Shown here: piece after piece, positions 7,876 to 32,211 of the stretch
Layout: each line of letters starts with the position of its first letter
Numbering within the stretch: position 1 is the stretch's first letter
Assembly: GCA_030429495.1 (NCBI GenBank)
Contig: JAUIFH010000015.1
Span: 1 to 32,616, forward strand
Length of the DNA: 32,616 nucleotides
Direction: 5' to 3'
Origin: Alphaproteobacteria bacterium
GTDB taxonomy: Bacteria; Pseudomonadota; Alphaproteobacteria; Rhodobacterales; Rhodobacteraceae
Translations under genes and position numbers: made by a program
Notes under the pieces: generated by a model
The model's database searches: none
What the model saw: the letters and a program-made list of their open reading frames with translations, nothing else
What the model was told of the DNA's origin: nothing

Positions 7876-7976
7876 CCGCACTTGCCGAAAAACGACCCCC
7901 GGCGTCGCAGAAGGCGGCGAAGCGCCCCCGGCATGCTTCAATTCTGGGGCGCGGGCAGATGACCGGAGGAATGGCG

Positions 7977-15281: not shown

Positions 15282-16235
15282 TCACGCGGGACTTGAAAGC
15301 GCGCGCGTCGGATGGCCCTGCGCCGCGCCGTCATGGCTTTCGCGCAGCGCTTCGGCAGAATCGCGGACCACGTCCGCGATCTGCATCAACTGTCTGGCAA
15401 GCGGGCTGGTGCTGCGCCAGATCATCCCGATCGTACGCTCGGGCTGCGGGTCGCCGAACCGCGCCACCGATACCGGCGCTGACCGTGTTTCCACCGATAC
15501 GGCCATTTCCGGGATCAGGGTGACGCCAATCCCGGCGCCGACCATCTGAACAAGGGTCGAGAGCGAACTGCCATCCAGGATCTCTCTCGGCAGCGCCGCG
15601 CCAAGATTGCAGAACGACAGGGCCTGATCGCGAAAGCAGTGGCCTTCCTCAAGCAGCAGCAGCCGCATCTCGCGCAGCATGTCGCGGTCCGGCACCGGCT
15701 TTTCGGCATCCTCGCCGGAGCGGACCAGAACGAAACTTTCCTTGAAAAGCGCGACCTCGGTCAGCGTCGGTTCCGACACCGGAAGCGCCACGATCGCCGT
15801 GTCGAGCCTGCCTTCGGCAAGTTCCTGGAGCAGTTTCGGCGTCACAGTCTCGCGGACATGGATGTCCAGCCCGCTGTATTGCCGCGAGAGATTGCCGACG
15901 ATCGTCGGCAGCAGATAAGGCGCAATCGTCGGAATCACTCCGATCCGCAGCCGCCCCACAAGCCGTTCGCGGGATGTCCGGGCGAGGTCCTCAAGTTCCT
16001 CCACCGAACGCAGGATATCGCGGACGCGCGGTGCGAATTCCTCTCCGAAACTGGTGAGCCGTACCTGCCGCGCGCTACGTTCGAACAAGGCGGTGCCAAG
16101 CGACGCCTCCATCTCCTTGATCTGCATCGACAACGCGGGCTGCGAGATAGCGCAGGCACTGGCCGCGCGTCCGAAATGGCCGAGAAGGGCGAGCGACTCG
16201 AAATAGCGAAGCTGCTTGAGGGTCAAATTTATCAT
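15282..16235 (-). CDS. oxyR: OxyR, peroxide-sensing LysR-type regulator
   Basis: A 317-residue LysR protein. Residues 1-60 hold the winged helix-turn-helix (RYFESLALLGHFGRAASACA, SQPALSMQIKEMEASLGTAL). The effector domain contains the OxyR-specific pair Cys200 in EEGHCFRDQ and Cys209 in SFCNLG, matching Cys199 and Cys208 of E. coli OxyR, which form a disulfide on peroxide exposure. This pair separates it from generic LysR proteins. It is divergent from katG across 187 bp, the classic arrangement in which OxyR activates katG and controls itself. Confidence 0.93.
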   Translation of the reverse strand: MINLTLKQLRYFESLALLGHFGRAASACAISQPALSMQIKEMEASLGTALFERSARQVRLTSFGEEFAPRVRDILRSVEELEDLARTSRERLVGRLRIGVIPTIAPYLLPTIVGNLSRQYSGLDIHVRETVTPKLLQELAEGRLDTAIVALPVSEPTLTEVALFKESFVLVRSGEDAEKPVPDRDMLREMRLLLLEEGHCFRDQALSFCNLGAALPREILDGSSLSTLVQMVGAGIGVTLIPEMAVSVETRSAPVSVARFGDPQPERTIGMIWRSTSPLARQLMQIADVVRDSAEALRESHDGAAQGHPTRALSSPA

Positions 16236-16410: not shown

Positions 16411-18630
<2,220 letters not shown>

Positions 18631-18651
18631 GTGCGGCTGTCATGAAGAATG

Positions 18652-18686
18652 CGCCCCGGACCGTTCACATGGTCCGGGGCGTTTTC
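18652..18686 (+). terminator. Rho-independent terminator of katG
   Basis: A perfect 11-bp stem (CGCCCCGGACC at 18652-18662 with GGTCCGGGGCG at 18671-18681) around an 8-base loop is followed by TTTTCG. It lies 21 bp after the katG stop and ends just before the stop of the convergent aminotransferase at 18688, so it may also act on the other strand, although the T tract there is weaker. Confidence 0.88.
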
Positions 18687-18687
18687 G

Positions 18688-20100
18688 TCAGCCGAGCACG
18701 GTCTTGATCGCGCGGGCGGTGGCGGCAACGACCTGATCGGCCTCGGCCTTCGTCAGGCAGAAGGGTGGGGCGAAACCAAGGATGTCGCCCTGCGGCATGG
18801 CCCGCGCGATGACCTTGTCCTGCGCGAGAAGCGCGGCCGAGACCTGCGGCCCGATCTTCCTCGCCGGATCGAAGAACGTGCGGTTAGCCTTGCCCTCGAC
18901 GAACTCTACCGCGCAGAGCATCCCTTCGCCGCGCACATCGCCTACATGGGGGTGGCTCGCCAGCGCCTCGGCCATGGTCTTTTTCAGATAGGCCCCGACC
19001 TCACCCGCGTTCTGTACGAGGTTCAGATCGTCGATGAGCTGAAGGTTCGCGACCCCCGCCGCCGCGCCGATCGGATGGGCAGAATAGGTCCAGCCATGGC
19101 CGATGGGGCCGTTTTCGTCCGTGCCCTGTGCCAGCACCTTCCAGACCCGATCCGAGACGATGGAGCCCGACAAAGGCGCATAGGCCGAGGTCAGGCCCTT
19201 GGCGATGGTGATGATATCGGCCTCGATCCCGTAATGGTCCGACCCGAACATGGTGCCGAGACGGCCAAAGCCGGTCACGACCTCGTCCACGATCAGCAGG
19301 ATATCGTGCTTTTTCAGCACCTTCTGGATCGCCGCCCAGTAGCCGGCGGGCGGCGGCACGATGCCGCCGGTGCCCAGAACCGGTTCGCCGATGAACGCGG
19401 CGATAGTGTCGGCGCCTTCGCGCTCGATCAGCGCCTCCAACTCGGCCACGAGGTGGGCGGTGAACGTGGCCTCGGACTGCGACGGGTCCTTGCGCCGGTA
19501 GTAATAGGGCGCCTCGGTATGGATCACCTGCGCAAGCGGCAGGTCGAACTTCTTGTGGAAAAGCTCCAGCCCCGTCAGCGAGCCGGTCACAAGGCCAGAG
19601 CCGTGATAGCCGCGCCAGCGCGAGATTATCTTTTTCTTCTCAGGCCGTCCGAGGACGTTGTTGAAGTACCAGACGAGCTTGACGTTCGTCTCGTTCGCGT
19701 CCGACCCGCCAAGGCCGAAATAGACCTTCGACATGTTCGAAGGCGCCCGGTCGAGGATCATTTTGGCGAGCGTGATAGACGCCTCGGTCCCGTGACCGAC
19801 ATAGGAATGATAGTAGGCAAGCTCGCGCGCCTGCGCGGCGATGGCGTCCGCGATCTCCTGACGGCCGTAGCCAGCATTGACGCAATAAAGCCCGGCAAAG
19901 GCGTCGAGCAGCCGGTTGCCGTCGCGGTCTTCGATGTGAACGCCCGAGGCGGTGCGGATCACCCGGTTCGGGCTTTCGCCGCGCGCATGCTGGGCAAGAT
20001 GGGTCGAGGGATGGAAGAAATTCTCGCGGTCCCACTGGTCCAGTTGATCATTCTTCAGCATCTTTGTCCTCTCTGGCGCGGAAATCCCGGGTTCGGTCAT
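18688..20100 (-). CDS. Class III PLP-dependent aminotransferase
   Basis: A 470-residue omega-aminotransferase of the large class III family. Seen: the cofactor-binding GLGGSDANETNVKLVWYFNN region, Asp272 in LLIVDEVVTGFGR and the Schiff-base Lys301 in TIAKGLTSAYAPLSG. Such enzymes move the terminal amino group of compounds such as putrescine, diaminobutyrate, beta-alanine or taurine to pyruvate or 2-oxoglutarate. ATG 20100 is the likely start; a GTG at 20109 is also in frame. It diverges from an ectoine-hydrolase-like gene, as the ectoine-pathway transaminase (DoeD/Atf) does in some bacteria, which suggests a diaminobutyrate-like substrate, but this is inferred from context only. Confidence 0.88.
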   Translation of the reverse strand: MTEPGISAPERTKMLKNDQLDQWDRENFFHPSTHLAQHARGESPNRVIRTASGVHIEDRDGNRLLDAFAGLYCVNAGYGRQEIADAIAAQARELAYYHSYVGHGTEASITLAKMILDRAPSNMSKVYFGLGGSDANETNVKLVWYFNNVLGRPEKKKIISRWRGYHGSGLVTGSLTGLELFHKKFDLPLAQVIHTEAPYYYRRKDPSQSEATFTAHLVAELEALIEREGADTIAAFIGEPVLGTGGIVPPPAGYWAAIQKVLKKHDILLIVDEVVTGFGRLGTMFGSDHYGIEADIITIAKGLTSAYAPLSGSIVSDRVWKVLAQGTDENGPIGHGWTYSAHPIGAAAGVANLQLIDDLNLVQNAGEVGAYLKKTMAEALASHPHVGDVRGEGMLCAVEFVEGKANRTFFDPARKIGPQVSAALLAQDKVIARAMPQGDILGFAPPFCLTKAEADQVVAATARAIKTVLG

Positions 20101-20196
20101 GTTGTGCACATCATCATGCTGATTGGTAGTGCGTCAAGTCGCGATGCTGCGTGTATTCTTAGTAATTCTTGTCAGACCTCAATCATCGTCGTAGCG

Positions 20197-20206
20197 TTGT
20201 ATACAA
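20197..20206. promoter_or_regulatory. Candidate GntR-family operator TTGTATACAA
   Basis: A perfect 10-bp palindrome lies in the 136-bp region between the aminotransferase and the M24 gene. Its form (TNGTNNACNA) is that of operators of FCD-type GntR regulators, and a gene for one is the third gene downstream (22594). It lies 31 bp before the M24 start, where it could control both divergent transcripts. Confidence 0.5.
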
Positions 20207-20236
20207 ATCAACCGCGACTCATGAAAGTGTCCGCCA

Positions 20237-21421
20237 ATGGCCCAGTCCAACGCCCCCTTCAGCGCCGCCGAATACAACCGCCGTATCACCGCGACCCGGG
20301 CGGCGATGGAACGCGCCGGTCTGGATGCGATCTTCGTCACCGACCCGTCGAACCAGGCCTGGCTGACCGGCTATGACGGCTGGTCCTTCTATGTTCATCA
20401 GGGCGTGATCCTGACGATGGATGGCGATCCGGTCTGGTGGGGTCGTCACATGGACAGCATCGGCGCGCGGCGCACCTGCTGGTTTTCCGGCGATACGGTG
20501 CGGGGTTATGGCGATCACTTCGTCCAGTCGACCGGGCGTCACCCGATGCAGGACCTTGCGGGCCACCTGCGCGCGCTCGGCCTCGAACGGGGCCGGATCG
20601 GCGTCGAGATGGAGAACTACTACTATTCCGCGAAAGCACACGAAGTGCTGCGCGCCGAACTGCCGGAGGCGCGGTTCTCCGATGCGACCGCGCTCGTGAA
20701 CTGGCGGCGACTGGTCAAGTCGGAGGAAGAGGTCGGCTTCATCCGAAATGCCGCGAAAATCTCGGAAAAGGTCGTCCGGACCGCCATCGAGCGGGCAGAG
20801 CCGGGCCTGCGCAAGAACGACCTCGTGGCCGAGATCTATCACGCCGCGATCACCGGAGTGGGCGAGATCTGGGGCGACTATCCGGCCATTGTGCCGCTGA
20901 CGCCCTCGGGCCTTGACGCCACTGCCGCGCACCTGACCTGGAACGGTGCGCCGATGCGGCGTGGCGAGGCCACGTTCTTCGAACTTTCCGGCTGCTACCG
21001 CCGCTACCACGCGCCCTTGTGCCGGACCGTCTATCTCGGGACACCCCCGGCCGAGATGCGCGAGGCGGAAAAGGCCCAGATCGAGGGGATCGAGGCCGGG
21101 CTGGAAGCCGCCCACGCCGGCAACCGGACCTGCGACATCGCCAATGCCTTCATGGCGGTCCTGAAGAAATACGGCATCCACCGCGAAGGGCGCATGGGCT
21201 ACCCGGTCGGTCTGTCCTACCCGCCTGACTGGGGTGAGCGCACGGCTTCGATCCGGTCCGAGGACGAGACGGTGCTGGAACCGGGCATGGTCTTCCATTT
21301 CATGCCCGCTCTCTGGATGGAAAGCTGGGGGCTTGAGACCACCGAGACGATCCTGATCCGCGACAGCGGCCCGGCCGAGGCGCTCTGCAATGTCGAGCGT
21401 CAACTCTTCGTCAAGGAATGA
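20237..21421 (+). CDS. M24 family hydrolase, ectoine hydrolase (DoeA/EutD)-like
   Basis: A 394-residue pita-bread-fold protein with an N-terminal creatinase-like domain (about 10-160) and a C-terminal M24 domain (165-390). Segments LTGYDGWSFYVHQGV (43-57) and YPPDWGERTAS resemble ectoine hydrolases, which open the ectoine ring to acetyl-diaminobutyrate. The metal ligands of true M24 aminopeptidases are mostly missing: the DxG position reads Glu249-Leu-Ser, the second Asp is lost in YHAPLCRTV, and HFMPALW stands where a metal-binding Glu is expected. This fits the metal-free creatinase/EutD branch. Translationally coupled to the next gene (ATGA). The ribosome-binding site is weak. It could act on another cyclic amidine or guanidino compound. 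Confidence 0.75.
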   Translation: MAQSNAPFSAAEYNRRITATRAAMERAGLDAIFVTDPSNQAWLTGYDGWSFYVHQGVILTMDGDPVWWGRHMDSIGARRTCWFSGDTVRGYGDHFVQSTGRHPMQDLAGHLRALGLERGRIGVEMENYYYSAKAHEVLRAELPEARFSDATALVNWRRLVKSEEEVGFIRNAAKISEKVVRTAIERAEPGLRKNDLVAEIYHAAITGVGEIWGDYPAIVPLTPSGLDATAAHLTWNGAPMRRGEATFFELSGCYRRYHAPLCRTVYLGTPPAEMREAEKAQIEGIEAGLEAAHAGNRTCDIANAFMAVLKKYGIHREGRMGYPVGLSYPPDWGERTASIRSEDETVLEPGMVFHFMPALWMESWGLETTETILIRDSGPAEALCNVERQLFVKE

Positions 21422-22587
21422 ACAGGGTGATCGCGCTTGACGATACCAAGGCGCTGCTGCGGGAACTGATCGCGTTTCCGACCGTATCGAGCGACAGCAA
21501 CCTTGCGATGATCGCGTTTCTGGCCGACCGGCTGGAGGCGGCCGGCGCGCGGGTGGACATCTACGGGGATGCAACCGGCACGAAGGCGAACCTCTTCGCG
21601 ACGCTGGGGCCGGAGGTGGATGGCGGTATCCTGCTTTCCGGGCATTCCGACGTCGTTCCCGTCGCCGATCAGGATTGGTCGACCGACCCGTTCGAGATGG
21701 TCGAACGCGACGGCAAGCTCTATGGGCGCGGAAGTTGCGACATGAAGGGGTTCATCGCCGCTGCCGTCGCGATGGCGCCCTTCTACGCCGAACGGGCGAA
21801 GGATCGTCCGATCCACTTCGCCTTCACGCATGACGAAGAGGTCGGCTGCCTGGGGGCGCGGGCGCTTGTTCAGGCGTTGCGCGGCCGCGACGTCCGGCCC
21901 GGCGTGGCGATCATCGGGGAACCGACAGAAATGCGGATCATCGAGGGCCACAAGGGGTGCTACGAATACACGACGCATTTCACCGGGCTGGAAGGCCACG
22001 GATCTGCGCCCGACCGGGGGGTGAATGCGGTGGAATACGCGGTACGCTATGTCGCGCGGCTTCTGGAACTGAAAGGGAAACTGGCGGCGCGCGCGCCGCA
22101 GGACAGCCCCTTCGATCCGCCCTGGACGACGCTCAATACCGGCGCGCTGGTCGGGGGCGTTGCCCACAACGTCATCCCCGGCAAGGCGCGGGTGGACTGG
22201 GAAATGCGGCCCGTTCAGCATTCAGACGCCGATTTCGTCAAGGACGAGCTGCGGCACTACTGCACCCAGATACTGCTGCCGGCGATGCGCGCGGTATCGC
22301 CCGGCGCGGACATCGTCACCGAAACCATCGGCGAGGTCGATGGCCTGATTCCGGCGGCGGAGAACGAGGCGCGGGATATCGTGATGGAACTGACCGGCAC
22401 GAACGGCGCCGATACCGTGCCTTTCGGCACCGAGGCAGGCATCTTCCAGACCCTCGGCATGTCGGTCGTCGTATGCGGGCCCGGTTCGATCGAGCAGGCG
22501 CACAAGCCGGACGAATATGTTGCGATCGACCAACTCGGCCAGTGCCTTGCCATGCTCGAACGGCTTGGCGGGAAACTCGGTGGGTGA
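21418..22587 (+). CDS. M20/ArgE-type N-acyl amino acid deacetylase
   Basis: A 389-residue zinc hydrolase of the acetylornithine deacetylase group. Metal and catalytic residues are complete: His76 and Asp78 in SGHSDVVPV, Asp108 in GRGSCDMKG, Glu140/Glu141 in HDEEVG and a C-terminal His in EQAHKPDEY. The dimerisation 'lid' domain spans about 180-290. It removes the acetyl group from N-acetylated diamino acids. Its ATG overlaps the M24 stop, so it probably acts directly after that enzyme, as a deacetylase follows ring opening in ectoine breakdown; the known pathway uses a different family (DoeB/EutE) or an M20 variant, so the exact substrate is open. ArgE of arginine synthesis is the other reading. 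Confidence 0.86.
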   Translation: MNRVIALDDTKALLRELIAFPTVSSDSNLAMIAFLADRLEAAGARVDIYGDATGTKANLFATLGPEVDGGILLSGHSDVVPVADQDWSTDPFEMVERDGKLYGRGSCDMKGFIAAAVAMAPFYAERAKDRPIHFAFTHDEEVGCLGARALVQALRGRDVRPGVAIIGEPTEMRIIEGHKGCYEYTTHFTGLEGHGSAPDRGVNAVEYAVRYVARLLELKGKLAARAPQDSPFDPPWTTLNTGALVGGVAHNVIPGKARVDWEMRPVQHSDADFVKDELRHYCTQILLPAMRAVSPGADIVTETIGEVDGLIPAAENEARDIVMELTGTNGADTVPFGTEAGIFQTLGMSVVVCGPGSIEQAHKPDEYVAIDQLGQCLAMLERLGGKLGG

Positions 22588-22593
22588 GGGCGG

Positions 22594-23301
22594 ATGATGG
22601 CCGATGACATGGCCGAGCCCGGTTCCTCCGCCCGCGACCGGTTCGACCGGTTCCACAGCGAAATCCGCAACCGGATCTGCCTGCTCGACTATGCGCCCGG
22701 CGCCCGGCTGTCGGAGGAGGCGCTCGCATCCGAGTTCGGGGTCAGCCGGACGCCGCTGCGCCGGGTTCTGGCGCGGCTTGAGGATGAAGGTCTTGTCCGT
22801 TCCGTGCACGGCGTCGGCACTTTCGTCACCGATGTGGAGTTGGGTGAACTGGCGCAGACCTACCGGCTTCGGCTGGAATTGTCGGAACTGACGGGTCGGC
22901 TGGACACGATTGCACCGGATCCGGCGCAGATGACGGAATTCAGGGCGACCTTGATGCGGGTCCGGGCGCTTGTCGGCGATCCCGATCCGAGGCGTTTCGC
23001 AGAACTCAACATGGAGTTCTTCCTCGCCCGGCTCCGGCTGACCAGGAACGAGCCGCTGCGCGAGATCAGCGAACGGCTTTATTTCCGCACGACGCGCATC
23101 TGGCTGAAAGCCGTCCTTGCCTCAAAGATCGACCTGCGGGACGAGGCGGAACTGTTCGAAGGCGAAATCGCCGATGTGCTTCGCGCGCTTGAAATCGGCG
23201 ATATCAGGGCTGCGGCGCTGATCCAGCGCGCGCATATCTCGATGAGTTTCGGGCGGATGCGCAGCGTTCTTGATCCTGAAAGCGGGCAGGTGCAGCGCTG
23301 A
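22594..23301 (+). CDS. GntR-family transcriptional regulator (FCD type)
   Basis: A 235-residue regulator with an N-terminal winged helix-turn-helix (LLDYAPGARLSEEALASEFG, VSRTPLRRVLARLEDEGLVR) and an all-helical FCD ligand domain (about 90-225) in which the expected metal-binding pattern is only partly evident. Seven bases after the deacetylase stop. A GAGGG sequence favours the second of two adjacent ATGs (22597), but either is possible. It probably controls its own operon and the divergent aminotransferase through the TTGTATACAA site at 20197, with a pathway intermediate as effector. Confidence 0.88.
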   Translation: MMADDMAEPGSSARDRFDRFHSEIRNRICLLDYAPGARLSEEALASEFGVSRTPLRRVLARLEDEGLVRSVHGVGTFVTDVELGELAQTYRLRLELSELTGRLDTIAPDPAQMTEFRATLMRVRALVGDPDPRRFAELNMEFFLARLRLTRNEPLREISERLYFRTTRIWLKAVLASKIDLRDEAELFEGEIADVLRALEIGDIRAAALIQRAHISMSFGRMRSVLDPESGQVQR

Positions 23302-23328: not shown

Positions 23329-24321
23329 CTAGCGCGATGCCGCCCCGTGGGTGGCCAGCGCGAGGACGGCTTTCCAACGCTCTGGTGACACCGATACCGC
23401 GTCGCGGGTGCCGCGTCGGCCGCCGGGAAGCCGGACGCCGGGATCGCGGGCGATTTCGTCCGAGATCCGCCGAATCCTGTCGGCAAGCGTTCCCGCGCGG
23501 GCGCCGGGGTCGATCAGGATGTAGAACTGGCCAAGGTCGTGCGGCGGGCCGTTTTCCGCCTTCAGGCCTTGGACATCGAGCGAGTTGACCGACCCGGTCA
23601 GGCCGGCGGCGAGGAACTCCGCCAGCAGCCCGAGCGCCCAACCCTTGTAGCTCGCGGCGCTGACAAGCGAACCGGCGAGGGCAGAGGCGGGGTCGGTCGT
23701 CGGGTTTCCGTCCTTGTCCACGGCCCAGCCGAGCGGGATCGTTTCGCCCGCCGCCTGTGCCATCGTGATCTTGCCAAGCGCTACCGCCGCGGTCGAGAAA
23801 TCGGCATGCATGGCCGGGCCGGAAGGGCCGGGTACGGTAAAGGCGATCGGGTTCGTGCCGATCAGCGGCGTCTTGCCGCCGGGGCCGGAGACGATGGCCG
23901 ACGCGTTGGTCATGCCGATCCCGATCAGCCCGGCAGCGGCGATCTGTTCGGTAAAGAACCCAAGCGAGGTGCAGGTATGCGAGTGGCAGACCGCGAGCGA
24001 TGCGATGCCGCACTGCCGTGCCGCGTCCACCGCCGGGTGAAGCGCGCGGGAGAAGGCCGGCTGCGCGAAGCCCAGTTTCGCGTCCACGGCGACTTCGCCC
24101 GGGCGCGGCGTCGTCACCACGGGTTCCACCCGGCCATCCACCCGCCCGGAAACGAGCTGACGGCAATAGCTTTCGAGGTAGTAGAGTCCGCAGATGATGT
24201 TGCCGGTCTCCTCGGCGCGCGCGACGGCGCGGGCGACCTCCGCTGCCTGCCACTCACCCGCCCCATGCGCCATCAATGCCTGTTGGCTGGCGCTCGCGAT
24301 CTGGTCGATCCCGATCTGCAT
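23329..24321 (-). CDS. Ldh_2-family (malate/L-lactate dehydrogenase-like) oxidoreductase
   Basis: A 330-residue NAD(P)H-dependent oxidoreductase of the Ldh_2 family (MdhL/DpkA/ComC type). Family patterns include GLYYLESYCRQL (45-56), the cofactor-binding GGKTPLIGTNPIAFTVP and YKGWALGLLAEFLAAGLTG. Known members reduce cyclic imines such as pyrroline- or piperideine-2-carboxylate, or oxidise 2-hydroxy acids. The usual catalytic SHG triplet reads ICG here (Cys44), while the SHTCTSLG segment keeps His115, so it belongs to a divergent subgroup. Start ATG 24321 has AGGGGA upstream. It is the last gene of the operon; paired with a RidA-like protein it may handle an imine intermediate. Confidence 0.82.
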   Translation of the reverse strand: MQIGIDQIASASQQALMAHGAGEWQAAEVARAVARAEETGNIICGLYYLESYCRQLVSGRVDGRVEPVVTTPRPGEVAVDAKLGFAQPAFSRALHPAVDAARQCGIASLAVCHSHTCTSLGFFTEQIAAAGLIGIGMTNASAIVSGPGGKTPLIGTNPIAFTVPGPSGPAMHADFSTAAVALGKITMAQAAGETIPLGWAVDKDGNPTTDPASALAGSLVSAASYKGWALGLLAEFLAAGLTGSVNSLDVQGLKAENGPPHDLGQFYILIDPGARAGTLADRIRRISDEIARDPGVRLPGGRRGTRDAVSVSPERWKAVLALATHGAASR

Positions 24322-24373
24322 AGCTGTCCCCTTTCCTGCGGAATCACCCATTCCGGGCTGTATCCCGGTTCCC

Positions 24374-24748
24374 TTATCCTGCGGGCGCGCGTGCCTCCGG
24401 CATTCTCGCCACCGCAATCATTTCGACCCGCATCCCGGGGCGTGCCAGCGCCGCGACGCCGCAGGTGGCGCGGGCCGGCGGCGTCTTCTTGTCAACCCAT
24501 TCGTCCCACGCGGCATTCATTCCCGCGAAGTCGGCCATATCGGTCAGCCAAACCTGGATTGATGCCACGTCGGACTTGCTGCCGCCGAGTTCGGCCATGA
24601 CGCCGTCGATCGCGGCAAGGACCTGCCGGGTCTGCACCTCGATCCCTGCCGTCAGGTCCTCGGGGATCTGGCCGGCCAGAAAGACGGCCTCGCCCACGCG
24701 GACGGCTTCGCTCATCCTCGGGCCGGGATGAAGATGGGTGATGGTCAT
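24374..24748 (-). CDS. RidA-family (Rid/YjgF/UK114) protein
   Basis: A 124-residue protein with the compact Rid fold: VFLAGQIPEDLTAGIEVQTR near residues 22-41, then IQVWLTDMADFAGMNAAWDEW and the PARATCGVAALARPGMRVEM stretch that holds the conserved Arg. RidA-type proteins hydrolyse reactive enamine/imine compounds made by PLP enzymes or oxidases; related members act as deaminases in catabolic operons. AAGGGA precedes the start. It follows the DUF3726 gene by 24 bp and precedes Ldh by 52 bp, suggesting it acts on an imine in the same route. Confidence 0.85.
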   Translation of the reverse strand: MTITHLHPGPRMSEAVRVGEAVFLAGQIPEDLTAGIEVQTRQVLAAIDGVMAELGGSKSDVASIQVWLTDMADFAGMNAAWDEWVDKKTPPARATCGVAALARPGMRVEMIAVARMPEARAPAG

Positions 24749-24772
24749 GCGAGGTTCCCTTTCATCCCGGGA

Positions 24773-25474
24773 TCAATCGTTGTCGCTGGAAGCCGCGCCG
24801 GCATCGGCGCAGGATTTCTCGGAAGGCGGAATCGTCGTCTTCATGGCGAGATCGTTCAGCCGGGCGAGGACGGCGCGGTCGCATTTACGGGGTTCGGGTT
24901 TCCCTTCGGCTGGCGACGCCGCGACACCGGCAGAAAGCACCAGCGTCGTGACCACCAGACCGGCGATATCGTTTCCAAGCACGCTGTCCGCCGTGACCTC
25001 CATCGCGCCACCGTCCCACGAAACGGTCAGCGGCCCGGAAAGGCGCGCGACCTCGGCGAGGAACGGCACGAGGATCAGGGGGCGGCTGACGGGTCCGAGG
25101 GTCAGGCCGCCCCCGGTCAACGCGGCCTCGGGAAGGGCGCGGAAATCGCACAGCGTCACCCCGAGGGCCACGGGGCAGAGCGGTTCCGCCCCGGAAGGGT
25201 GCCAGTGGCCGGTTTCGATGACAGGGCAGACATCCCGCCAGGCCGCACCTTCGGTCCGTTCAAGATGGGCGAGCAGCGCCGAGGCACCGTCGATGCTGCG
25301 GGCGTGAAGCCACCCGACGGCAAAGCCCGCCTCTTCCGCATTGCCCCAGCTCATCCCGGCGCCGCGTGCGGCCTTGGTGCAGAGCGTCTCGATCTCGGTC
25401 TGCGACATCAACACGCGCTCTTCCGAGGGAAGCGGACTGCCCGCGCGGGTCGGGTCATTGGGTTCAGGTGTCAT
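24773..25474 (-). CDS. DUF3726 family protein
   Basis: A 233-residue cytosolic protein. From about residue 23 it carries the DUF3726-like pattern MSQTEIETLCTKAARGAGMS, WGNAEEAGFAVGWLHARSID. No catalytic motif is recognisable; there are several conserved-looking Cys and Trp residues and an acidic C-terminal tail. The family has no assigned function and is, to my knowledge, seen mainly in proteobacterial catabolic operons. AAGGGG six bases before ATG 25474 supports this start, overlapping the preceding gene by 11 bp; ATG 25408 is an alternative that begins right at the domain. Confidence 0.7.
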   Translation of the reverse strand: MTPEPNDPTRAGSPLPSEERVLMSQTEIETLCTKAARGAGMSWGNAEEAGFAVGWLHARSIDGASALLAHLERTEGAAWRDVCPVIETGHWHPSGAEPLCPVALGVTLCDFRALPEAALTGGGLTLGPVSRPLILVPFLAEVARLSGPLTVSWDGGAMEVTADSVLGNDIAGLVVTTLVLSAGVAASPAEGKPEPRKCDRAVLARLNDLAMKTTIPPSEKSCADAGAASSDND

Positions 25475-27131
25475 GCGCAACCCCTTCCTTCAGGTCGAGC
25501 GGGTAGGGCGCACCCTGAAACAGGCAGATGCGCACCCATTTGTCAGAGCGGGGATCGAAATGGCTTGCGCCGAAGAAGGCGAGCTTGCAGCGCATCAGGT
25601 CGATCGGCAGCATGTCTTCGGCGATCAGGTTGTCGCGGACCTCGGCATAGGGGTGGCTGGCCGCGATCTGGGCGCGGCGGACCATGAAGCGGTGTTCGGG
25701 GTGGCGCAGAAGGAAGGCCGCAACCGTCTCGTCCTCCGGCCAGGATTGCAGCGCGTCGTCCAGCTCCTTCGCGAGCCGTCCGGTACAGAGCGGCTGTTCC
25801 CGCTCTGCCATCGCGTCGGTGGCCCGCTCACCCAGCCGGGGTTCAAGCTTGTCCTCCGATACATACCAGAACCGTGCCTGCTGCGCGGGGTCCGCAAAGT
25901 CGATCGCCAATGCCCAGTCGTAGCGGTCGCGAAGGATTGCCCGCAGCGCGCCGACCCGCATCGCGCCGTCGAGGCGGAAGGTCTCGTCCGCGCTCATTCC
26001 CGCCGCTAGATCGTCGACAAGCGGCCCATGCGGTTCGATCAAAAGGGCGAAGAGCGTTTCCTGCCCCTCAAGGCTGAGATTGTCCTCTCCCCAACGCCAG
26101 AGCGCATCCCAGGGCTGAGCTTCGCCACCCGGAAAGGCGGTGAGCCGTTCGCCGATACGGTCGAGGTCGGCCCTGAGATCGGCGAGTTTGGCGATCTGGA
26201 TCGGGTGCTGCGAATGCCAGCATGCGGCGTTGTCGCAGGCCTTGGTGAAAGCGGCGTTCAGCCCGCGCACCGCGTCGGGAGTGGCGGTATCAAGGGTTCG
26301 GACGCGCGCCAGCGCTTCTTCGCGCGCGGCCATCCAGTTGTTCATCAGGATCGGGTGGCGAACAAGGAACGGCGCCATGCCGAGGCCGGTCGAATTACCG
26401 ACGCCGAGGAGACCCTTGGTCTCCGGCGCAAGGCGCGCGGCTCCCGCTCCGCCTCTGACACGCGCGAGGTGTTCGACGATGTCCACCGTGAACTGCCGGG
26501 TCAGCCAGACCGACAGCATCTCGGCCTGGAACGGTGCGGCAAGCTCTGGCCGGGCCGCGATCTCGCGCCGGTCGGCGGCACCGAACTTGCCCGAACCGTA
26601 GACGGCGGTCGTCCGCATCAGGTAGCCTACGGCGCCGATCTCCGCGGGGTCGGGCTGGCGACCTGCGGCAAGGTTCTCGATGACATGCGCCCAAAGCCGG
26701 ACAGAGCGGTTGGCGCGGCTCAGCGACAGTTCGCGCGGGCTGATCCGCCCGGCCTCCTGCAACGGGACGTTGGCCTGAAGCCGGTCCAGATCCGCCGTCG
26801 TCGGCGTTCCGTCGAAGAGTGCGAAAGTCGCGTCCCATGCCGTCGCGATGACCCGGTCGGAGCGCATGTCGTCCGGCAGGTCGTGGGCGAACGCGACAAG
26901 GCTGTAGGTCCGATCTGGCCCGACAGCGCGATAGACGGCGCGGCCGACGCCCTTGTCGTCGATATTCCAGACCGGGCGGTCGAAGCGCCAGTCGCCCGCC
27001 AGCATCCGCCGCAGCATGACCCGCAGGAAGGACAGTCGCGTCGGATGCGCCGAACCCATGCGGGCCAGCCGCATCACGACAGAAGGCGCGCGCCGCCCGT
27101 TCGTTTCGCGTTTCGGATTTGCATTCACCAT
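25464..27131 (-). CDS. Conserved-looking protein of unknown function, 555 residues
   Basis: I do not recognise this protein. It has no signal peptide or membrane helix and is probably cytosolic, with mixed alpha-helical composition. It has aromatic-rich segments (GDWRFDRPVWNIDDKGVGRA near residue 45; CWHSQHPIQIAKLADLRADL) and a glycine-rich stretch, LLGVGNSTGLGMAPFLVRHP, near residue 245 that could bind a nucleotide or phosphate. The C-terminus holds RCKLAFFGASHFDPRSDKW. ATG 27131 is the first plausible start; the frame stays open upstream only as an antisense shadow of the BCCT gene. Its stop overlaps the DUF3726 start by 11 bp, so the two are co-translated and may form a complex. It lies 71 bp after the transporter. 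Confidence 0.75.
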   Translation of the reverse strand: MVNANPKRETNGRRAPSVVMRLARMGSAHPTRLSFLRVMLRRMLAGDWRFDRPVWNIDDKGVGRAVYRAVGPDRTYSLVAFAHDLPDDMRSDRVIATAWDATFALFDGTPTTADLDRLQANVPLQEAGRISPRELSLSRANRSVRLWAHVIENLAAGRQPDPAEIGAVGYLMRTTAVYGSGKFGAADRREIAARPELAAPFQAEMLSVWLTRQFTVDIVEHLARVRGGAGAARLAPETKGLLGVGNSTGLGMAPFLVRHPILMNNWMAAREEALARVRTLDTATPDAVRGLNAAFTKACDNAACWHSQHPIQIAKLADLRADLDRIGERLTAFPGGEAQPWDALWRWGEDNLSLEGQETLFALLIEPHGPLVDDLAAGMSADETFRLDGAMRVGALRAILRDRYDWALAIDFADPAQQARFWYVSEDKLEPRLGERATDAMAEREQPLCTGRLAKELDDALQSWPEDETVAAFLLRHPEHRFMVRRAQIAASHPYAEVRDNLIAEDMLPIDLMRCKLAFFGASHFDPRSDKWVRICLFQGAPYPLDLKEGVAHDT

Positions 27132-27202
27132 CGTGCGACCCGTCCTGCTTTCCCGGTGGAAGTTGGGGCCGGGCGGTAGCCTATTCCGCCCGGCGCGCCT
27201 TG

Positions 27203-28750
27203 TCAGTTGCGCCCCAGTTTCAACGTGATGCGAACCGCATCCCAAAGCGAGGGCAGCAGGACCAGCGAGACCGGCACCGCCGTGACGACGATGAAGCTTT
27301 GCAACTTGCCGATGCCGCCAGACCCGGTCGAGATCAGGATCAGCGCCATCACGCCCATCGCAAGACCCCAGAAGGCGCGGAGCGCGGCCGACGGATTGTC
27401 GTCCGACATCGCGGTCGCGATGACAAAGCTCATGGAGTCCGAGGTGGTGGCGACGAAGATCATCGTCAGCACAAGGAACAGCAGCGACAGAAGGAAGCCC
27501 ATCGGCATCGCCTGCGTGATCGCCAGCAGTCCGGCGGGCAGGTTGAAGCCCTCGAACGGGCCGGAGATGATGCCGGGTGTTGCCTGTTCCAGCGCGATTC
27601 CCGAACCGCCGATGATCGTGAACCAGAAGTTGGTGATGAGCGGCGCGGCGACCGACAGCATGATGATGATCGAGCGGATGGAGCGCCCCCGGCTCACGCG
27701 GGCGATGAAGATCGCCATCAGCGGGCCGTAACCCAGGAACCAGCCCCAGAAGAACACCGTCCACCAGCCGAGCCAGCCCGGCGCCCCAAACATCCCGGCA
27801 TCGCCCCGGTACATCGCCATCTGGAAGAAGTTCTCGAAGTAGGTTCCAAGACCCCCGAAGAAACCCTTGAAGATAGTGAGCGTCGGGCCGGCGACGAGGA
27901 TGAAGGCCAGAAGCGCGAAGGCAAGGATCACGTTTGCCTTGGACAGGAACTGAATGCCCTTCTCCAGCCCTGAGATCGCGGAAACGGTGTAGATGCCTGC
28001 CAGTGCGAGGATGACCAAAGCCTGCGTGGCGAAGTCGTCGGGGATACCGAACAGCGCGTTCAGTCCGTAGGACATCTGCAGTCCGAGGAAACCGATCGGT
28101 CCGACAGTGCCGGCCACGACCGCGATGATGCAGGACGCGTCTGCGATCAGCCCGATCGGGCCGTTGATCGCGCGATCGCCGAAGACCGGATAGAGAAGGG
28201 TCCGGGGCGCCAACGGAAGGCCGAGATCATAGTGGTAGTGCATCAGCATGATCGTGGTGAGCGAGCCGAGGATCGCCCATGCCAGGAAACCCCAGTGCAG
28301 GTAGGCCTGCGCCAGTGCCGCATTGGCCTGCGCTTGCGGATCGCCGCTCAGATCGCTGAAATGCGGCGGTGTCGAAAGATAGTGCGCGATCGGCTCGCCC
28401 GCCGCCCAGAAGACGCCACCACCGGCGAGCAGCGTGCACATGATCATCGCCGCCCACTGGAACAAGGTGAACTCGGGCCGGTCGAGCCGGCCGAGCACCG
28501 CCCGGCTGCCGGGGAGGAAGCAGATGACGAGCCCGATCAGGAAGGTCGCCAGCAGCAGGACCTGCCAGTAAAGGCCGAAATAGGTCGCCGCGAAGTTGAA
28601 GCCCCAATCGACAATTGCCGAAAGGGTATCAATGCTGACGAGCGCCAGCGCGCAGAACAGCAGGATGAAACCGCCGGTCACCGCGAAAAGCGGTTTGTCC
28701 ACGCGGCCAAGCCCGGCTATCCGCCCGCGGCTCTCGGTAGTGTCCGTCAT
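27203..28750 (-). CDS. BCCT-family betaine/carnitine/choline-type transporter
   Basis: A 515-residue transporter with twelve predicted membrane helices. The family Trp box WWTVFFWGWFLGYGPLMAIF (329-348), followed by IARVSRGRSIRS, is intact and marks the aromatic cage that holds quaternary ammonium groups. The glycine motif after helix 3 reads AGGGVFWAAGEP (109-120) rather than the GMGIG of BetP, which suggests altered coupling or substrate. No long osmosensing C-terminal tail is present, favouring a nutritional over an osmotic role. GGAGGAAGG lies before the start. It probably imports the substrate of the surrounding catabolic operon. Confidence 0.93.
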   Translation of the reverse strand: MTDTTESRGRIAGLGRVDKPLFAVTGGFILLFCALALVSIDTLSAIVDWGFNFAATYFGLYWQVLLLATFLIGLVICFLPGSRAVLGRLDRPEFTLFQWAAMIMCTLLAGGGVFWAAGEPIAHYLSTPPHFSDLSGDPQAQANAALAQAYLHWGFLAWAILGSLTTIMLMHYHYDLGLPLAPRTLLYPVFGDRAINGPIGLIADASCIIAVVAGTVGPIGFLGLQMSYGLNALFGIPDDFATQALVILALAGIYTVSAISGLEKGIQFLSKANVILAFALLAFILVAGPTLTIFKGFFGGLGTYFENFFQMAMYRGDAGMFGAPGWLGWWTVFFWGWFLGYGPLMAIFIARVSRGRSIRSIIIMLSVAAPLITNFWFTIIGGSGIALEQATPGIISGPFEGFNLPAGLLAITQAMPMGFLLSLLFLVLTMIFVATTSDSMSFVIATAMSDDNPSAALRAFWGLAMGVMALILISTGSGGIGKLQSFIVVTAVPVSLVLLPSLWDAVRITLKLGRN

Positions 28751-28826
28751 GACCTTCCTCCCTCAAAGATCAGGTTGAGCTTGCCCGCGGGCCGTCAGAT
28801 GGTCGCTTGGCGATGATGGTGTGCGT

Positions 28827-29807
28827 TCAGGTCGCCGCACCGAAGCTTTTGTCGAAGAATCTCTGCCAGTTGCCGCCCATGACCGCCGCGACGTCGGCGT
28901 CACTCATCCCGGCGGCCTTCAGGCCCGAAGCGATGTTCCCGAAATCGCGGTTGCCGCCGAACCAGCCGGGCATCGGCGGAAAGCCGGGGGCGGACGCATT
29001 GCCTTCGCCATAATCGATGGACTTGGTCCAGCGGCCGACGCGCATCCATTCGACCACGCTGTCGGGCTGGTCCTGACAAAGGTCGGTGCCGATGCCGACA
29101 TGGCCGATCCCCATCAGATCGGCGGTGCGTGCGATCATGTCGCAGAAATCCTGTAGCGTGCAGGCGCTGCCGCCCTTCAGGTGATGCGGATAGACCGAAA
29201 AGCCAAGCATCCCGCCGCTTTCGCCGAGCGCGCGCAGAAGGTCGCCCGACTTGTTCCGCAGCGCCGGATGCCAGCTTGCCGGGTTGGCATGGGTGATGGC
29301 AATGGGCCGCGTCGAGTGCTCGATCGCCTCCAGCGTGGAGCGTTCGCCGGAATGGCTCATGTCGACGACCATGCCGACCCGATTCATCTCGGCGACGACC
29401 CCGCGCCCCATTCGGGTGAGGCCGGTGTCGTCGTCCTCATAACAGCCCGACGCCAGCAGCGACTGGTTGTTATAGGTGAGTTGCATGAACCTGAGGCCGA
29501 GCGTGTAGAGGACCTCCACAAGGCCGATATCGTCCTCCATGCAGGAAGGGTTCTGCGATCCGAAGAAGATCGCCGTCCGGCCGGTATCGCGGGCCAGCGC
29601 AATGTCCGCCGCCGTGCGGCCCTGAAAGATCAGGTCGGGAAACTGCTCGAACCAGCGGTTCCAGCGTTCGATCTGCAAGACCGTCTCGCGGAAGGTCTCG
29701 TGATAGGTGATGGTGACATGGACTGCGTCCACGCCACCCTCGCGCATCTGGCGGAAGATGTTTTCCGACCAGTTCGCGTATTGCAGACCGTCGATCAGCG
29801 GGTTCAT
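28827..29807 (-). CDS. M19 (membrane dipeptidase)-like amidohydrolase with altered metal site
   Basis: A 326-residue TIM-barrel protein of the renal-dipeptidase family. Three metal-site residues remain: His152 in VVDMSHSG, His173 in ITHANP and Asp242 in GIGTDLCQD. The N-terminal HxD pair, normally DGHND, is replaced by DGLQY (residues 6-10), and the bridging Glu is replaced in FFGSQNPS (about Gln85). So at most one metal is likely to bind, and dipeptidase activity may be lost or changed. Its ATG overlaps the aldehyde dehydrogenase stop by 4 bp. The substrate in this operon is unknown; a lactam, N-acyl or cyclic amide is plausible. Confidence 0.84.
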   Translation of the reverse strand: MNPLIDGLQYANWSENIFRQMREGGVDAVHVTITYHETFRETVLQIERWNRWFEQFPDLIFQGRTAADIALARDTGRTAIFFGSQNPSCMEDDIGLVEVLYTLGLRFMQLTYNNQSLLASGCYEDDDTGLTRMGRGVVAEMNRVGMVVDMSHSGERSTLEAIEHSTRPIAITHANPASWHPALRNKSGDLLRALGESGGMLGFSVYPHHLKGGSACTLQDFCDMIARTADLMGIGHVGIGTDLCQDQPDSVVEWMRVGRWTKSIDYGEGNASAPGFPPMPGWFGGNRDFGNIASGLKAAGMSDADVAAVMGGNWQRFFDKSFGAAT

Positions 29808-31255
29808 TCGGGTGCGCCCGCCGCCACATAGGCGGTCTTCACGGTGGTGTAGAACTCCGCCGCATAGCGCCCCTGTTCGCGCGGTCCGAACGAGGATGCG
29901 CCGCGCCCGCCGAAGGGCACGTGATAGTCGGTCCCGGCGGTCGGCAGGTTCACCATGACGCAGCCCGCGCGCATGTTGGTGCGGAAGTGGCTGGCGCGGG
30001 ACAGCGACCGGGTCATGATCCCGGCGGTCAGGCCGAATTCGCTGTCATTGGCGAGGCCGATCGCCTCATCATAGCTGCCCACCTTGATCACGCAGGTGAT
30101 CGGCGCGAACATCTCCTCGCGGTTCACGCGCATGTCGTTGCGGGTGCCGGCGAAGACGGCGGGCGCCATGTAGTAACCTTCGGTCGGGCGGTTCAGCCGC
30201 TCGCCACCACAAAGAAGCTCCGCACCCTCGGCCTTGCCGACGCCGATATAGTCGAGGTTCTGCGCAAGCTGTCCCTCGGACACGACCGGACCGATCTGAG
30301 TGCCGTCTTCCAGTGCGTGGCCAACCTTCAGCGCCTGCGCCGCCTTCACCAGTTTCTCGACAAAGGCATCGTGAACCGCCTCGTGCACGATGAGACGTGA
30401 GGCGGCGGTGCATTTCTGCCCTGTCCCGCCGAAAGCCGCGTTGGCAGAATGGGCGACAGCAAGGTCGAGATCTGCGTCGTCCATGACGACCATCGGGTTC
30501 TTCGACCCCATCTCCATCTGGACCTTGGTCATGTTGGCGACGGCCGATGCGGCGATGCCGCGCCCAACGGGAACGGAGCCGGTGAAGGTGATGGCGTCCA
30601 CATCGCGGCTTTCGACCAGCCGTTGGCCGACCGCCCGACCCGGGCCGGTGACGAGGTTGAAGAGCCCGGCGGGAATGTCCTGCCTGGCGATGATCTCGGT
30701 CAGCGCGATGGCACTGGCGGGTGTCAGGTTCGCGGGCTTCCAGACGACGGCATTGCCGAATGCCAGCGCCGGCGCGATCTTCCAGGCGGGCGTCGCCACC
30801 GGGAAGTTCCAGGGCGAGATGATCGCCACGACGCCCACGGGTTCACGGCGCACGTCGATCTCAATCCCCGGACGGACGCTTTCGGCCAGATCGCCATGCA
30901 GGCGCAGAACCTCGGCGGCGAAATAGGTGAAGAACTGACCGGCGCGGTAGACCTCGCCCTTGCCCTCGGCGAGGGGCTTGCCCTCCTCGCGCGACAAAAG
31001 CGCGCCGATCTCTCCCGCCCGCGCCATCAGTTCCGTGCCGATGGCCATCAGCACGTCGTGGCGCTTCTGCACGCCTGCCGCCCACCAGAGCGGCTGCGCT
31101 TTGCGCGCGGCGTCCAGCGCCTCGTCAAGCTGGGCGCTGCTGGCCTGGCCGTAGGTGCCGATCAGGTCGGACAGATCCGACGGGTTGCGGTTTTCGATCG
31201 CCGAGGCGCCAGCCTCCCACCGTCCGGCTATGTAGATACCTGTTGCCTGCGCCAT
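29804..31255 (-). CDS. NAD(P)-dependent aldehyde dehydrogenase
   Basis: A 483-residue ALDH of standard length with Asn150 (SPWNFP), Lys173 (WKPAN), general base Glu248 and nucleophile Cys282 (GTGQKCTAASR). The Cys context resembles 2-oxoglutarate semialdehyde and succinate semialdehyde dehydrogenases. It oxidises a semialdehyde to the acid that enters central metabolism. First gene of the operon, with GGAGGG before ATG 31255, divergent from the LysR gene across 89 bp. The exact aldehyde is not determined. Confidence 0.93.
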   Translation of the reverse strand: MAQATGIYIAGRWEAGASAIENRNPSDLSDLIGTYGQASSAQLDEALDAARKAQPLWWAAGVQKRHDVLMAIGTELMARAGEIGALLSREEGKPLAEGKGEVYRAGQFFTYFAAEVLRLHGDLAESVRPGIEIDVRREPVGVVAIISPWNFPVATPAWKIAPALAFGNAVVWKPANLTPASAIALTEIIARQDIPAGLFNLVTGPGRAVGQRLVESRDVDAITFTGSVPVGRGIAASAVANMTKVQMEMGSKNPMVVMDDADLDLAVAHSANAAFGGTGQKCTAASRLIVHEAVHDAFVEKLVKAAQALKVGHALEDGTQIGPVVSEGQLAQNLDYIGVGKAEGAELLCGGERLNRPTEGYYMAPAVFAGTRNDMRVNREEMFAPITCVIKVGSYDEAIGLANDSEFGLTAGIMTRSLSRASHFRTNMRAGCVMVNLPTAGTDYHVPFGGRGASSFGPREQGRYAAEFYTTVKTAYVAAGAPE

Positions 31256-31295: not shown

Positions 31296-31312
31296 TAGAT
31301 TCAGGCAATCTA
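31296..31312. promoter_or_regulatory. Candidate LysR operator, 6-5-6 inverted repeat
   Basis: TAGATT-CAGGC-AATCTA is a perfect 17-bp inverted repeat and contains the T-N11-A signature of LysR operators. It lies midway between the divergent aldehyde dehydrogenase and LysR genes, where a LysR recognition site is expected. Confidence 0.6.
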
Positions 31313-31329
31313 AAAGTAATTAACAATAC

Positions 31330-31344
31330 TTCAGGATTTCTGAA
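31330..31344. promoter_or_regulatory. Second inverted repeat abutting the LysR start codon
   Basis: TTCAG-GATTT-CTGAA is a perfect 15-bp inverted repeat ending directly at ATG 31345, so it occupies the place of the ribosome-binding site (only a short AGGA is available at 31333). Its half-site shares ATTCAG/TTCAG with the 31296 repeat. Binding here, or hairpin formation in the RNA, would repress the LysR gene. Confidence 0.5.
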
Positions 31345-32211
31345 ATGGCGATCAAGCTGGAGATGCTCCGCGTCTTTCGTGTCGTGGCCGAGCACGGGGC
31401 CCTCGCCGACGCAGCGGCGAAACTCGGCCGGACGCCCTCCGCCGTCTCGATGACCTTGGCGCAGCTTGAAGGCCATATCGGCGCGCCACTTTTCGAGACC
31501 GACCGCAAGAACCGCCTGACAAAACTGGGTGAGCTGATCCTTGCCGAGGCTGTGCGGACGACGGATGTGTTCGCCGCCAGCACGGAGGCGATCCGCCGGC
31601 TGACGACGTCTATAGCGGGGACGGTGCGGATCGCGGCGGTTCCGACGGTCATCGCCACGCTGTTGCCCGGCGCCATAGCGGCGTTCAGGGCGTCGCACCC
31701 CGACGTCCGGCTTGAGATCAGCGATCTGGACAGCGAATCCGTGCGCCGCCGCATTCGCTTCGACGAGGCCGATATCGGCATCGTCACTGCTGCCGCCGGC
31801 ATGCCCGAAGAGGGCGTCCTGATCGCGCATGACGCGCTCGGGATCGTCCATCGCACCGACGGCCCGATCGCCCGCGTTCTGGCATCGGGGGAAACGGCGC
31901 CGAGCTGGTCTTTGCTTCGGCTGGAACCGCCTATCGCCAACCCGCTTTGCGCGCTGGTCGACAGTCCGGAAATCGCGGGGATCCTTGAGAACTGCACTCT
32001 TCAGGCGCGCAACACGACGGCGCTCCTGTCCTTCGTGCGCGAGGGGCTGGGGGCTACGATCCTCCCCGAAGGCGCACTGTCGATCCTTGGAGACACGCTC
32101 GCCTTCACCCGCCCCGCCGACCCGGCAACGCAGCGGGAGTTGCGCATGATCAGCAGCACCGAGAGAAGGCTGAGCCCCGCGGCCGAGGCTTTCCGGGATG
32201 CACTCCTGTGA
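31345..32211 (+). CDS. LysR-family transcriptional regulator
   Basis: A 288-residue LysR protein with an N-terminal winged helix-turn-helix (MLRVFRVVAEHGALADAAAK, TPSAVSMTLAQLEGHIGAPL) and a periplasmic-binding-protein-like effector domain (about 90-285). It is divergent from the aldehyde dehydrogenase operon with palindromic candidate operators between them, so it is the likely activator of that operon. The effector is unknown. The start is set by the first ATG after the inverted repeat; a leader this tight suggests autoregulation. Confidence 0.92.
   Translation: MAIKLEMLRVFRVVAEHGALADAAAKLGRTPSAVSMTLAQLEGHIGAPLFETDRKNRLTKLGELILAEAVRTTDVFAASTEAIRRLTTSIAGTVRIAAVPTVIATLLPGAIAAFRASHPDVRLEISDLDSESVRRRIRFDEADIGIVTAAAGMPEEGVLIAHDALGIVHRTDGPIARVLASGETAPSWSLLRLEPPIANPLCALVDSPEIAGILENCTLQARNTTALLSFVREGLGATILPEGALSILGDTLAFTRPADPATQRELRMISSTERRLSPAAEAFRDALL

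Follow-up and report, generated by a model that had tools for sequence, protein, structure and literature searches.

The current work concerns a seven-gene catabolic operon and a divergently oriented LysR gene on contig JAUIFH010000015.1 of an alphaproteobacterium of the Rhodobacteraceae (assembly GCA_030429495.1), the whole analysed stretch of 32,616 nucleotides being referred to as the window. The seven genes, identified from open reading frame (ORF) coordinates and Pfam matches, are all located on the minus strand, from position 31255 down to 23329, and specify an aldehyde dehydrogenase (ALDH), an M19-like hydrolase, a BCCT importer, a protein of 555 residues designated here as U555, a DUF3726 protein, a Rid-family protein and an Ldh_2 oxidoreductase (Table 1). 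The ALDH and M19 genes overlap by 4 bases (29804-29807) and the U555 and DUF3726 genes by 11 or 17 bases, according to which start codon is chosen, the remaining junctions being gaps of 76 (M19-BCCT), 71 (BCCT-U555), 24 (DUF3726-Rid) and about 52 bases (Rid-Ldh_2, with the Ldh_2 start at 24321). The Ldh_2 start codon is uncertain, and a listed TTG start at 24417 would make this gene overlap that of the Rid protein. An earlier note on this DNA had described a one-strand seven-gene set with two overlapping junctions and otherwise gaps of 24-76 bases, all of which were found to be present. No Rieske oxygenase or N-demethylase was recognised among the seven genes by means of Pfam, nor any flavin monooxygenase by means of Pfam and NCBIfam. 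Based on its gene content and on the genomic associations described below, we consider uptake and degradation of homarine (N-methylpicolinate), or of an N-methylpyridinium carboxylate very close to it, to be the likely function of this operon.

Table 1. Coordinates of the operon genes, the divergent regulator gene and the operator-like element, with proposed roles and supporting matches.
Feature	Position	Strand	Proposed role or remark	Evidence
ALDH	29804..31255	-	First operon gene; proposed semialdehyde oxidation	Pfam Aldedh 4.5e-158
M19-like hydrolase	28827..29807	-	Non-canonical metal site; proposed deformylase or C-N hydrolase	Pfam Peptidase_M19 7.4e-71
BCCT importer	27203..28750	-	Proposed homarine uptake	Pfam BCCT 1e-146
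U555 (555 residues)	25464..27131	-	Proposed large subunit of a ring-attacking enzyme	No Pfam family
DUF3726 protein	24773..25480	-	Near-constant partner of U555	PF12525 2e-22
Rid-family protein	24374..24748	-	Enamine/imine handling	Ribonuc_L-PSP 5.2e-27
Ldh_2 oxidoreductase	23329..24321	-	Proposed N-methyl-imino acid reductase	Ldh_2 5.2e-76
LysR regulator	31345..32211	+	Divergent	HTH_1 6.4e-16, LysR_substrate 1.1e-25
Operator-like element	31300..31345		Two copies of TTTCAG-N5-CTGAA	Pattern search and promoter alignment

A protein search with U555 retrieved 48 loci in genome contigs, mainly of Rhodobacteraceae, the other hosts being Rhizobiaceae, Dongia, an Acidimicrobiales metagenome-assembled genome and Arcobacteraceae. 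In the family sample, U555 was found in 71 of 149 genomes (one match, in G108, being a 31-bit fragment) and DUF3726 in 64, neither being present in G010, the other sampled genome of the same genus. U555 also occurs in 29 of the 398 genomes of the phylum sample, in the genus of Ruegeria profundi (52 of 54 genomes) and in 168 of 72,556 plasmid records, which include those of Phaeobacter, Sinorhizobium and Vibrio as well as that of a haloarchaeon with approximately 31% identity. Ruegeria sp. TM1040 and Phaeobacter inhibens DSM 17395 are among its carriers.

The gene neighbourhood was counted across 76 loci, all of which had been picked for holding U555 or DUF3726 and some of which share a genome (L121 and L122); L001-L030 and L079-L108, being short, were not included. 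The main figures refer to the 54 well-flanked loci, in which either side extends over 6 kb or more. Near U555, these 54 loci contain genes for M19 (50), ALDH (34), DUF3726 (31), Ldh_2 (23) and Rid (12), and for importers of the BCCT (19) and ProU-type ABC (12) classes, where the identity cut-offs employed undercount divergent partners (DUF3726, for instance, rises from 31/54 to 79/86 when a profile search is used). A betaine-type importer of either class lies within 8 kb in 31 loci. In the profile search, a DUF3726-like ORF follows 76 of the 86 U555-cluster ORFs and is fused to U555 in three more; among the seven without a partner, L109:7918-8664 is itself a DUF3726 protein and L038 stops just downstream. 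The module is a real, widely conserved catabolic unit with U555 and DUF3726 as its tightest pair, and the absence of linkage in relatives, which the earlier note had named as grounds for abandoning the operon as one unit, is contradicted by these counts. The reading in the same note of a degradation route for a nitrogenous solute, possibly quaternary or cyclic, is partly borne out: the set is one conserved unit, often with a betaine-type carrier, and its solute is probably both quaternary and cyclic.

Two kinds of divergent loci were also encountered. In L065, L068, L122 and L124, U555 is accompanied by a short downstream partner only (about 170-180 amino acids), which matches DUF3726 above the cut-off in L065 and only with an E-value of 0.13 in L122; no ALDH, Ldh_2 or betaine-type importer was recognised near these four, and an M19 gene is present in L068 and L122. 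Distant U555 relatives of approximately 30% identity (L130, L135, L136) are found with an IclR regulator, an M19 relative, an ABC importer and a Rid protein, and some with a thiamine pyrophosphate (TPP) enzyme. These three loci are taken to represent a sister system.

The genes of N-methylglutamate dehydrogenase (mgd) provide the most informative link to a metabolic context. Genes resembling mgd adjoin the module in seven examined loci (L134, L118, L119, L077, L054, L157 and L158), the neighbour comparison that covered L118, L119, L077 and L054 having dropped matches under 26% identity. In Ruegeria sp. TM1040 (L134), the genes located beside the module are four of the sarcosine-oxidase type and one for a TmaR-like regulator, and in L157 mgdA and mgdC come after Ldh_2 and BCCT on the same strand. 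The genome from which the window derives holds its own mgd-type operon elsewhere (G000:C21), unlinked to the window. The TM1040 alpha subunit is 72% identical to this copy, as compared to 55, 46 and 44% for the other three copies in the same genome, and the G000:C21 copy adjoins a trimethylamine N-oxide demethylase gene (equivalog over cut-off) and a regulator gene whose product is 51% identical to that of TM1040. Approximately 6 kb beyond it lie GXGXG, Glu_synthase and glutamine-synthetase genes (mgs/gmaS type), which represent a methylamine route. Because of the 72% identity and of these neighbours, the linked genes are read as mgd rather than as plain sarcosine oxidase. In a nine-row tree, four of the five linked copies group with the G000:C21 copy with a support of 90/93, which is under the mark that the tool itself stars. 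According to PMC13390433, tmaR adjoins mgdABCD in R. pomeroyi, and Mgd is reported to participate in homarine catabolism, for which that source cites Nat Microbiol 2026, 11:1531-1546.

Across the family sample, U555 occurs in 30 of the 44 genomes that contain a high-scoring mgdC and in 41 of the 105 that do not (Fisher P 0.0013, or 0.0011 when G108 is omitted), the mgdC threshold of 1318 bits or more, together with a partial match in G032, having been placed by visual inspection at a score gap. In the 30 genomes with both genes, these lie within 10 kb of each other in four (G075, G086, G100 and G117) as opposed to 0.15 expected (P about 1.5e-5); both P values are optimistic since the genomes are related. 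The co-occurrence is moderate, and the linkage within 10 kb is the stronger of the two associations.

The operon enzymes were then compared with characterised relatives. For the Ldh_2 oxidoreductase, the nearest solved relative is delta1-piperideine-2-carboxylate reductase (DpkA; 1wtj/2cwf/2cwh, 6e-46). The best NCBIfam equivalogs of the ALDH are alpha-ketoglutaric semialdehyde dehydrogenase and 2,5-dioxovalerate dehydrogenase, both at about 494 bits and thus well under the respective cut-offs of 770 and 750. The nearest PDB relative of the M19-like protein is the amidohydrolase 2i5g (2.1e-57). Its metal-ligand positions were assigned with reference to the renal dipeptidase site (HxD plus a bridging Glu), of which two His and one Asp are kept in 66 of 66 aligned rows; residues H152, H173, D242 and Q85 are each present in all 66. 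The first His-ligand position is occupied by Leu (66/66), the Asp-ligand position by Tyr (62) or Cys (4), and the bridging Glu position by Gln (66/66), the latter change being also visible in the alignment with the PDB relative. Since metal-ligand positions are replaced in every row, the protein is probably not an ordinary binuclear zinc dipeptidase. In a literature search on M19 in combination with BCCT and ALDH, the term 'peptidase M19' appeared in none of the matches listed.

The U555-DUF3726 pair is the unexplained core of the operon. For U555, no relatives were found in Pfam, NCBIfam or PDB sequences (best PDB-sequence E-value 0.12), and its AlphaFold model (predicted local distance difference test, pLDDT, 84.8; predicted template modelling score, pTM, 0.88) retrieved no PDB match by Foldseek at E<=0.001; several weak hits, to kinase-like folds with a template modelling score of about 0.1, were taken as noise. 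In three Arcobacteraceae loci, U555 is fused to a DUF3726-like C-terminal domain in proteins of 802-804 residues (PF12525 2.6e-10 in L069). A search with the model of such a fusion returned Ldh_2 enzymes as 17 of the first 18 Foldseek hits (best E-value 4.2e-3, none at or below 0.001). As the aligned ranges were not printed, this match was assigned to the DUF3726 part by comparison with U555 alone, because no Ldh_2 enzyme was present among the 50 hits listed for the latter. The fusion model has a pLDDT of 73.6, falling below 50 at residues 555-630 around the junction, and a pTM of 0.66.

Sequence comparisons point in the same direction. A relative in L111 matches both models (DUF3726 4.7e-11; Ldh_2 1.3e-10, 41.4 bits against a cut-off of 38.8), and the haloarchaeal partner in L131 matches Ldh_2 at 4.8e-9 with 36.2 bits, which is just under that cut-off; the DUF3726 protein of the window itself gave no Ldh_2 match in Pfam at E<=0.01. 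In a profile comparison by hhalign, DUF3726 and Ldh_2 scored 69.5% over 44 columns and 20.1% in a second alignment, as opposed to 0.2% for a U555 control. The two profiles align over the N-terminal 44-58 columns only, and DUF3726 proteins measure about 170-255 residues, as compared to approximately 335 for the Ldh_2 fold (YiaK, ureidoglycolate dehydrogenase, DpkA). DUF3726 is therefore probably a shortened and divergent Ldh_2-type fold, kinship being likely and not certain. A literature search for DUF3726 retrieved no paper from the library searched. We tentatively put forward that U555 and DUF3726 may form a new two-part enzyme, combining a fold unmatched in the PDB with a shortened Ldh_2 domain, which would dearomatise and open N-methylpyridinium carboxylates, no partner of the flavin, Rieske or molybdenum type being recognisable in the operon; homologues of approximately 30% identity in rhizobia and the haloarchaeon would act on related heterocycles.

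The region between the ALDH and LysR genes contains two copies of the palindrome TTTCAG-N5-CTGAA, 30 bases apart, one exact on the minus strand (31330-31345) and one with a single mismatch (31300-31315). With at most one mismatch allowed, this pattern yields three matches in the window as opposed to 0.15 expected, and none of 100 shuffles reaches three, where the three matches correspond to two places (two being both strands of one palindrome) and the chance figure is optimistic as the pattern was picked after the aligned promoters had been seen. A plain scan for inverted repeats gave three other 6-base repeats and not this element. Both half-sites of the first copy, TTCA and CCTGAA, are invariant in six of six aligned promoters, and the half-sites overall are identical in five or six of the six. 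Among the well-flanked loci, 29 of 54 contain a LysR gene within 8 kb of the module. The divergent LysR gene with operator-like palindromes, to which the earlier note had drawn attention, is thus present in the window and its palindrome is conserved among the six promoters; we infer that the LysR protein binds this predicted paired operator and thereby controls the gene set.

Homarine is an osmolyte of marine phytoplankton and is common in sea life. As a zwitterionic N-methylpyridinium, it would suit BCCT and betaine ABC importers. The linkage to mgd, the DpkA-like Ldh_2 enzyme and the betaine-type importers together lead us to propose that the operon degrades homarine by a route ending in N-methylglutamate, with a step order derived from general chemistry. 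In this route, homarine would be imported by the BCCT protein and its ring attacked and opened by the U555-DUF3726 pair, following which the ALDH would oxidise the semialdehyde produced by ring opening. The M19-like hydrolase may then free the N-bound ring carbon as formate, or otherwise cut a C-N bond, and the Rid protein would deal with a reactive enamine or imine. The DpkA-like Ldh_2 enzyme would reduce the N-methyl-imine of 2-oxoglutarate to N-methylglutamate, from which Mgd, encoded elsewhere in this genome and beside or within the set in some relatives, would generate glutamate and a one-carbon unit on tetrahydrofolate. In two Arcobacteraceae loci (L069 and L071), the next gene downstream of the module is an FdhF/YdeP-type, formate-dehydrogenase-like one, which is weakly consistent with formate release. 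R. pomeroyi assimilates homarine, for which a mean lifetime of 2 h or less is given in PMC12817926, and a 2022 paper lists homarine among the metabolites without a confirmed transporter in that strain.

Several observations weigh against homarine degradation, in addition to the relatedness of the genomes mentioned above. No recognisable oxygenase or flavoenzyme is present in the gene set, and the proposed ring opening is for this reason without precedent. The full set is not found at every U555 locus (ALDH, Ldh_2 and Rid in 34, 23 and 12 of the 54, these being undercounts), a betaine-type importer was not recognised nearby in 23 of the 54, and Phaeobacter inhibens (L129) instead has a multi-gene ABC importer and an amidohydrolase upstream of the module. 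By query search, mgd is near in only three of the 54 loci; 41 of the 71 U555-bearing family genomes have no high-scoring mgdC, a Poseidonibacter genome has no mgdC match at all, and the linked copy of L054 does not group firmly with the mgd of the trimethylamine cluster in the nine-row tree. Release of methylamine alone would also need Mgd, so that the linkage is not proof of direct N-methylglutamate formation. A gene-by-gene match with the published homarine pathway is putative; no naming of the pathway genes was seen in the passages found by the homarine searches, and the name homABCDER occurs in no paper of the library searched.

The transporter type and the mgd linkage would suit any route for an N-methyl amino acid, and the operon may thus degrade another N-methylated cyclic or quaternary solute feeding Mgd, such as a trigonelline-like pyridinium or an N-methylated proline or pipecolate. 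Distant U555 relatives are found with partners other than those of the operon, namely IclR, another ABC importer and, in some loci, a TPP enzyme or GabT/SSADH, which argues that the U555 family is not tied to one substrate, and in Pseudomonas MPC6 Rieske-type and mandelate-racemase-type genes, together with a second BCCT gene, are found next to the module. Nevertheless, we regard another such solute as unlikely for this operon, given that none of its seven genes is recognisable as that of a Rieske oxygenase, N-demethylase or flavin monooxygenase, the chemistry of U555 being unassigned, and that an N-methylproline route would presumably need no imine reductase. The U555 relative of Sinorhizobium meliloti is encoded on pSymB, and a strain of this species without pSymA is reported not to grow on trigonelline; a role of this relative in trigonelline use is accordingly disfavoured, which bears on a distant relative only.

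The presence of ALDH and a Rid-type deaminase, a pair used in 2-aminomuconate breakdown, would also fit a route with 2-(methylamino)muconate semialdehyde as the product of ring opening, from which methylamine is released, with mgd serving methylamine, and gmaS/mgs-type genes are indeed located near mgd in this genome. Such a route appears rather improbable in that it leaves the DpkA-like Ldh_2 and the M19 protein without a clear task, and in that mgd adjoins the module in the examined loci, where gmaS and mgs were not searched for. As a further alternative, the operon might scavenge peptides or N-acyl amino acids with the M19 protein as an ordinary dipeptidase, as the Pfam name Peptidase_M19 would imply, but this is highly improbable. 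In L129 and L121 the module does lie near an ABC importer that has two ATPase genes, a feature of peptide importers, in L129 together with the amidohydrolase; against this stand the replaced metal-ligand positions in all 66 M19 rows, the BCCT type of the window's own importer and the betaine-type importers near 31 of the 54 loci. Degradation of homarine by this operon, if true, would make U555 and DUF3726 genome markers for homarine use and would provide a protein pair without a known fold match as candidate for the ring-opening step.

Further genes were annotated in the rest of the window. The region at 18688-23301, beside the operon, contains a class III aminotransferase gene (minus strand) and genes for an M24 protein near the ectoine hydrolase DoeA (583 bits against a cut-off of 613), an M20 deacetylase that passes acetylornithine deacetylase models and a GntR regulator, and is possibly an ectoine-type catabolic set. 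A plus-strand ORF of 575 residues at 18649-20376, antisense to the aminotransferase gene and without Pfam match or likeness to U555, was set aside as probably spurious. A catalase-peroxidase gene is located at 16423-18630 (1217 bits against a cut-off of 770) with a divergent LysR-type gene at 15282-16235. At 7959-9530 lies a gene for an MttB-superfamily methyltransferase (Pfam MTTB 3.9e-219; trimethylamine equivalog 267 bits against a cut-off of 525), possibly another betaine demethylase, and at 9624-11257 a Haem-NO-binding (HNOB) protein gene lies immediately before one for a GGDEF protein, a possible signalling pair from nitric oxide to cyclic di-GMP.

Among known systems, the ectoine, carnitine, choline, creatinine and proline-betaine pathways were set aside as their signature enzymes are missing from the seven genes. 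The sets for proline-betaine and glycine-betaine demethylation hold a Rieske oxygenase or demethylase, unlike the operon described here, in which neither was recognised. The trigonelline (tgn) pathway of Acinetobacter baylyi shares with the proposed route a logic of ring opening, aldehyde oxidation and amide hydrolysis. It uses a flavin-dependent ring-opening monooxygenase, whereas the operon, without a recognisable flavin monooxygenase, has U555-DUF3726, M19 and Ldh_2 instead. The earlier note knew of no described pathway with this gene combination, a view that is probably out of date, since the mgd linkage and the cited 2026 work on homarine breakdown suggest that such a pathway has been published. 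Mgd is reported in that pathway and its genes adjoin the module in the seven loci listed above; the operon most likely represents the homarine pathway or a close relative of it, which would probably be in print already.

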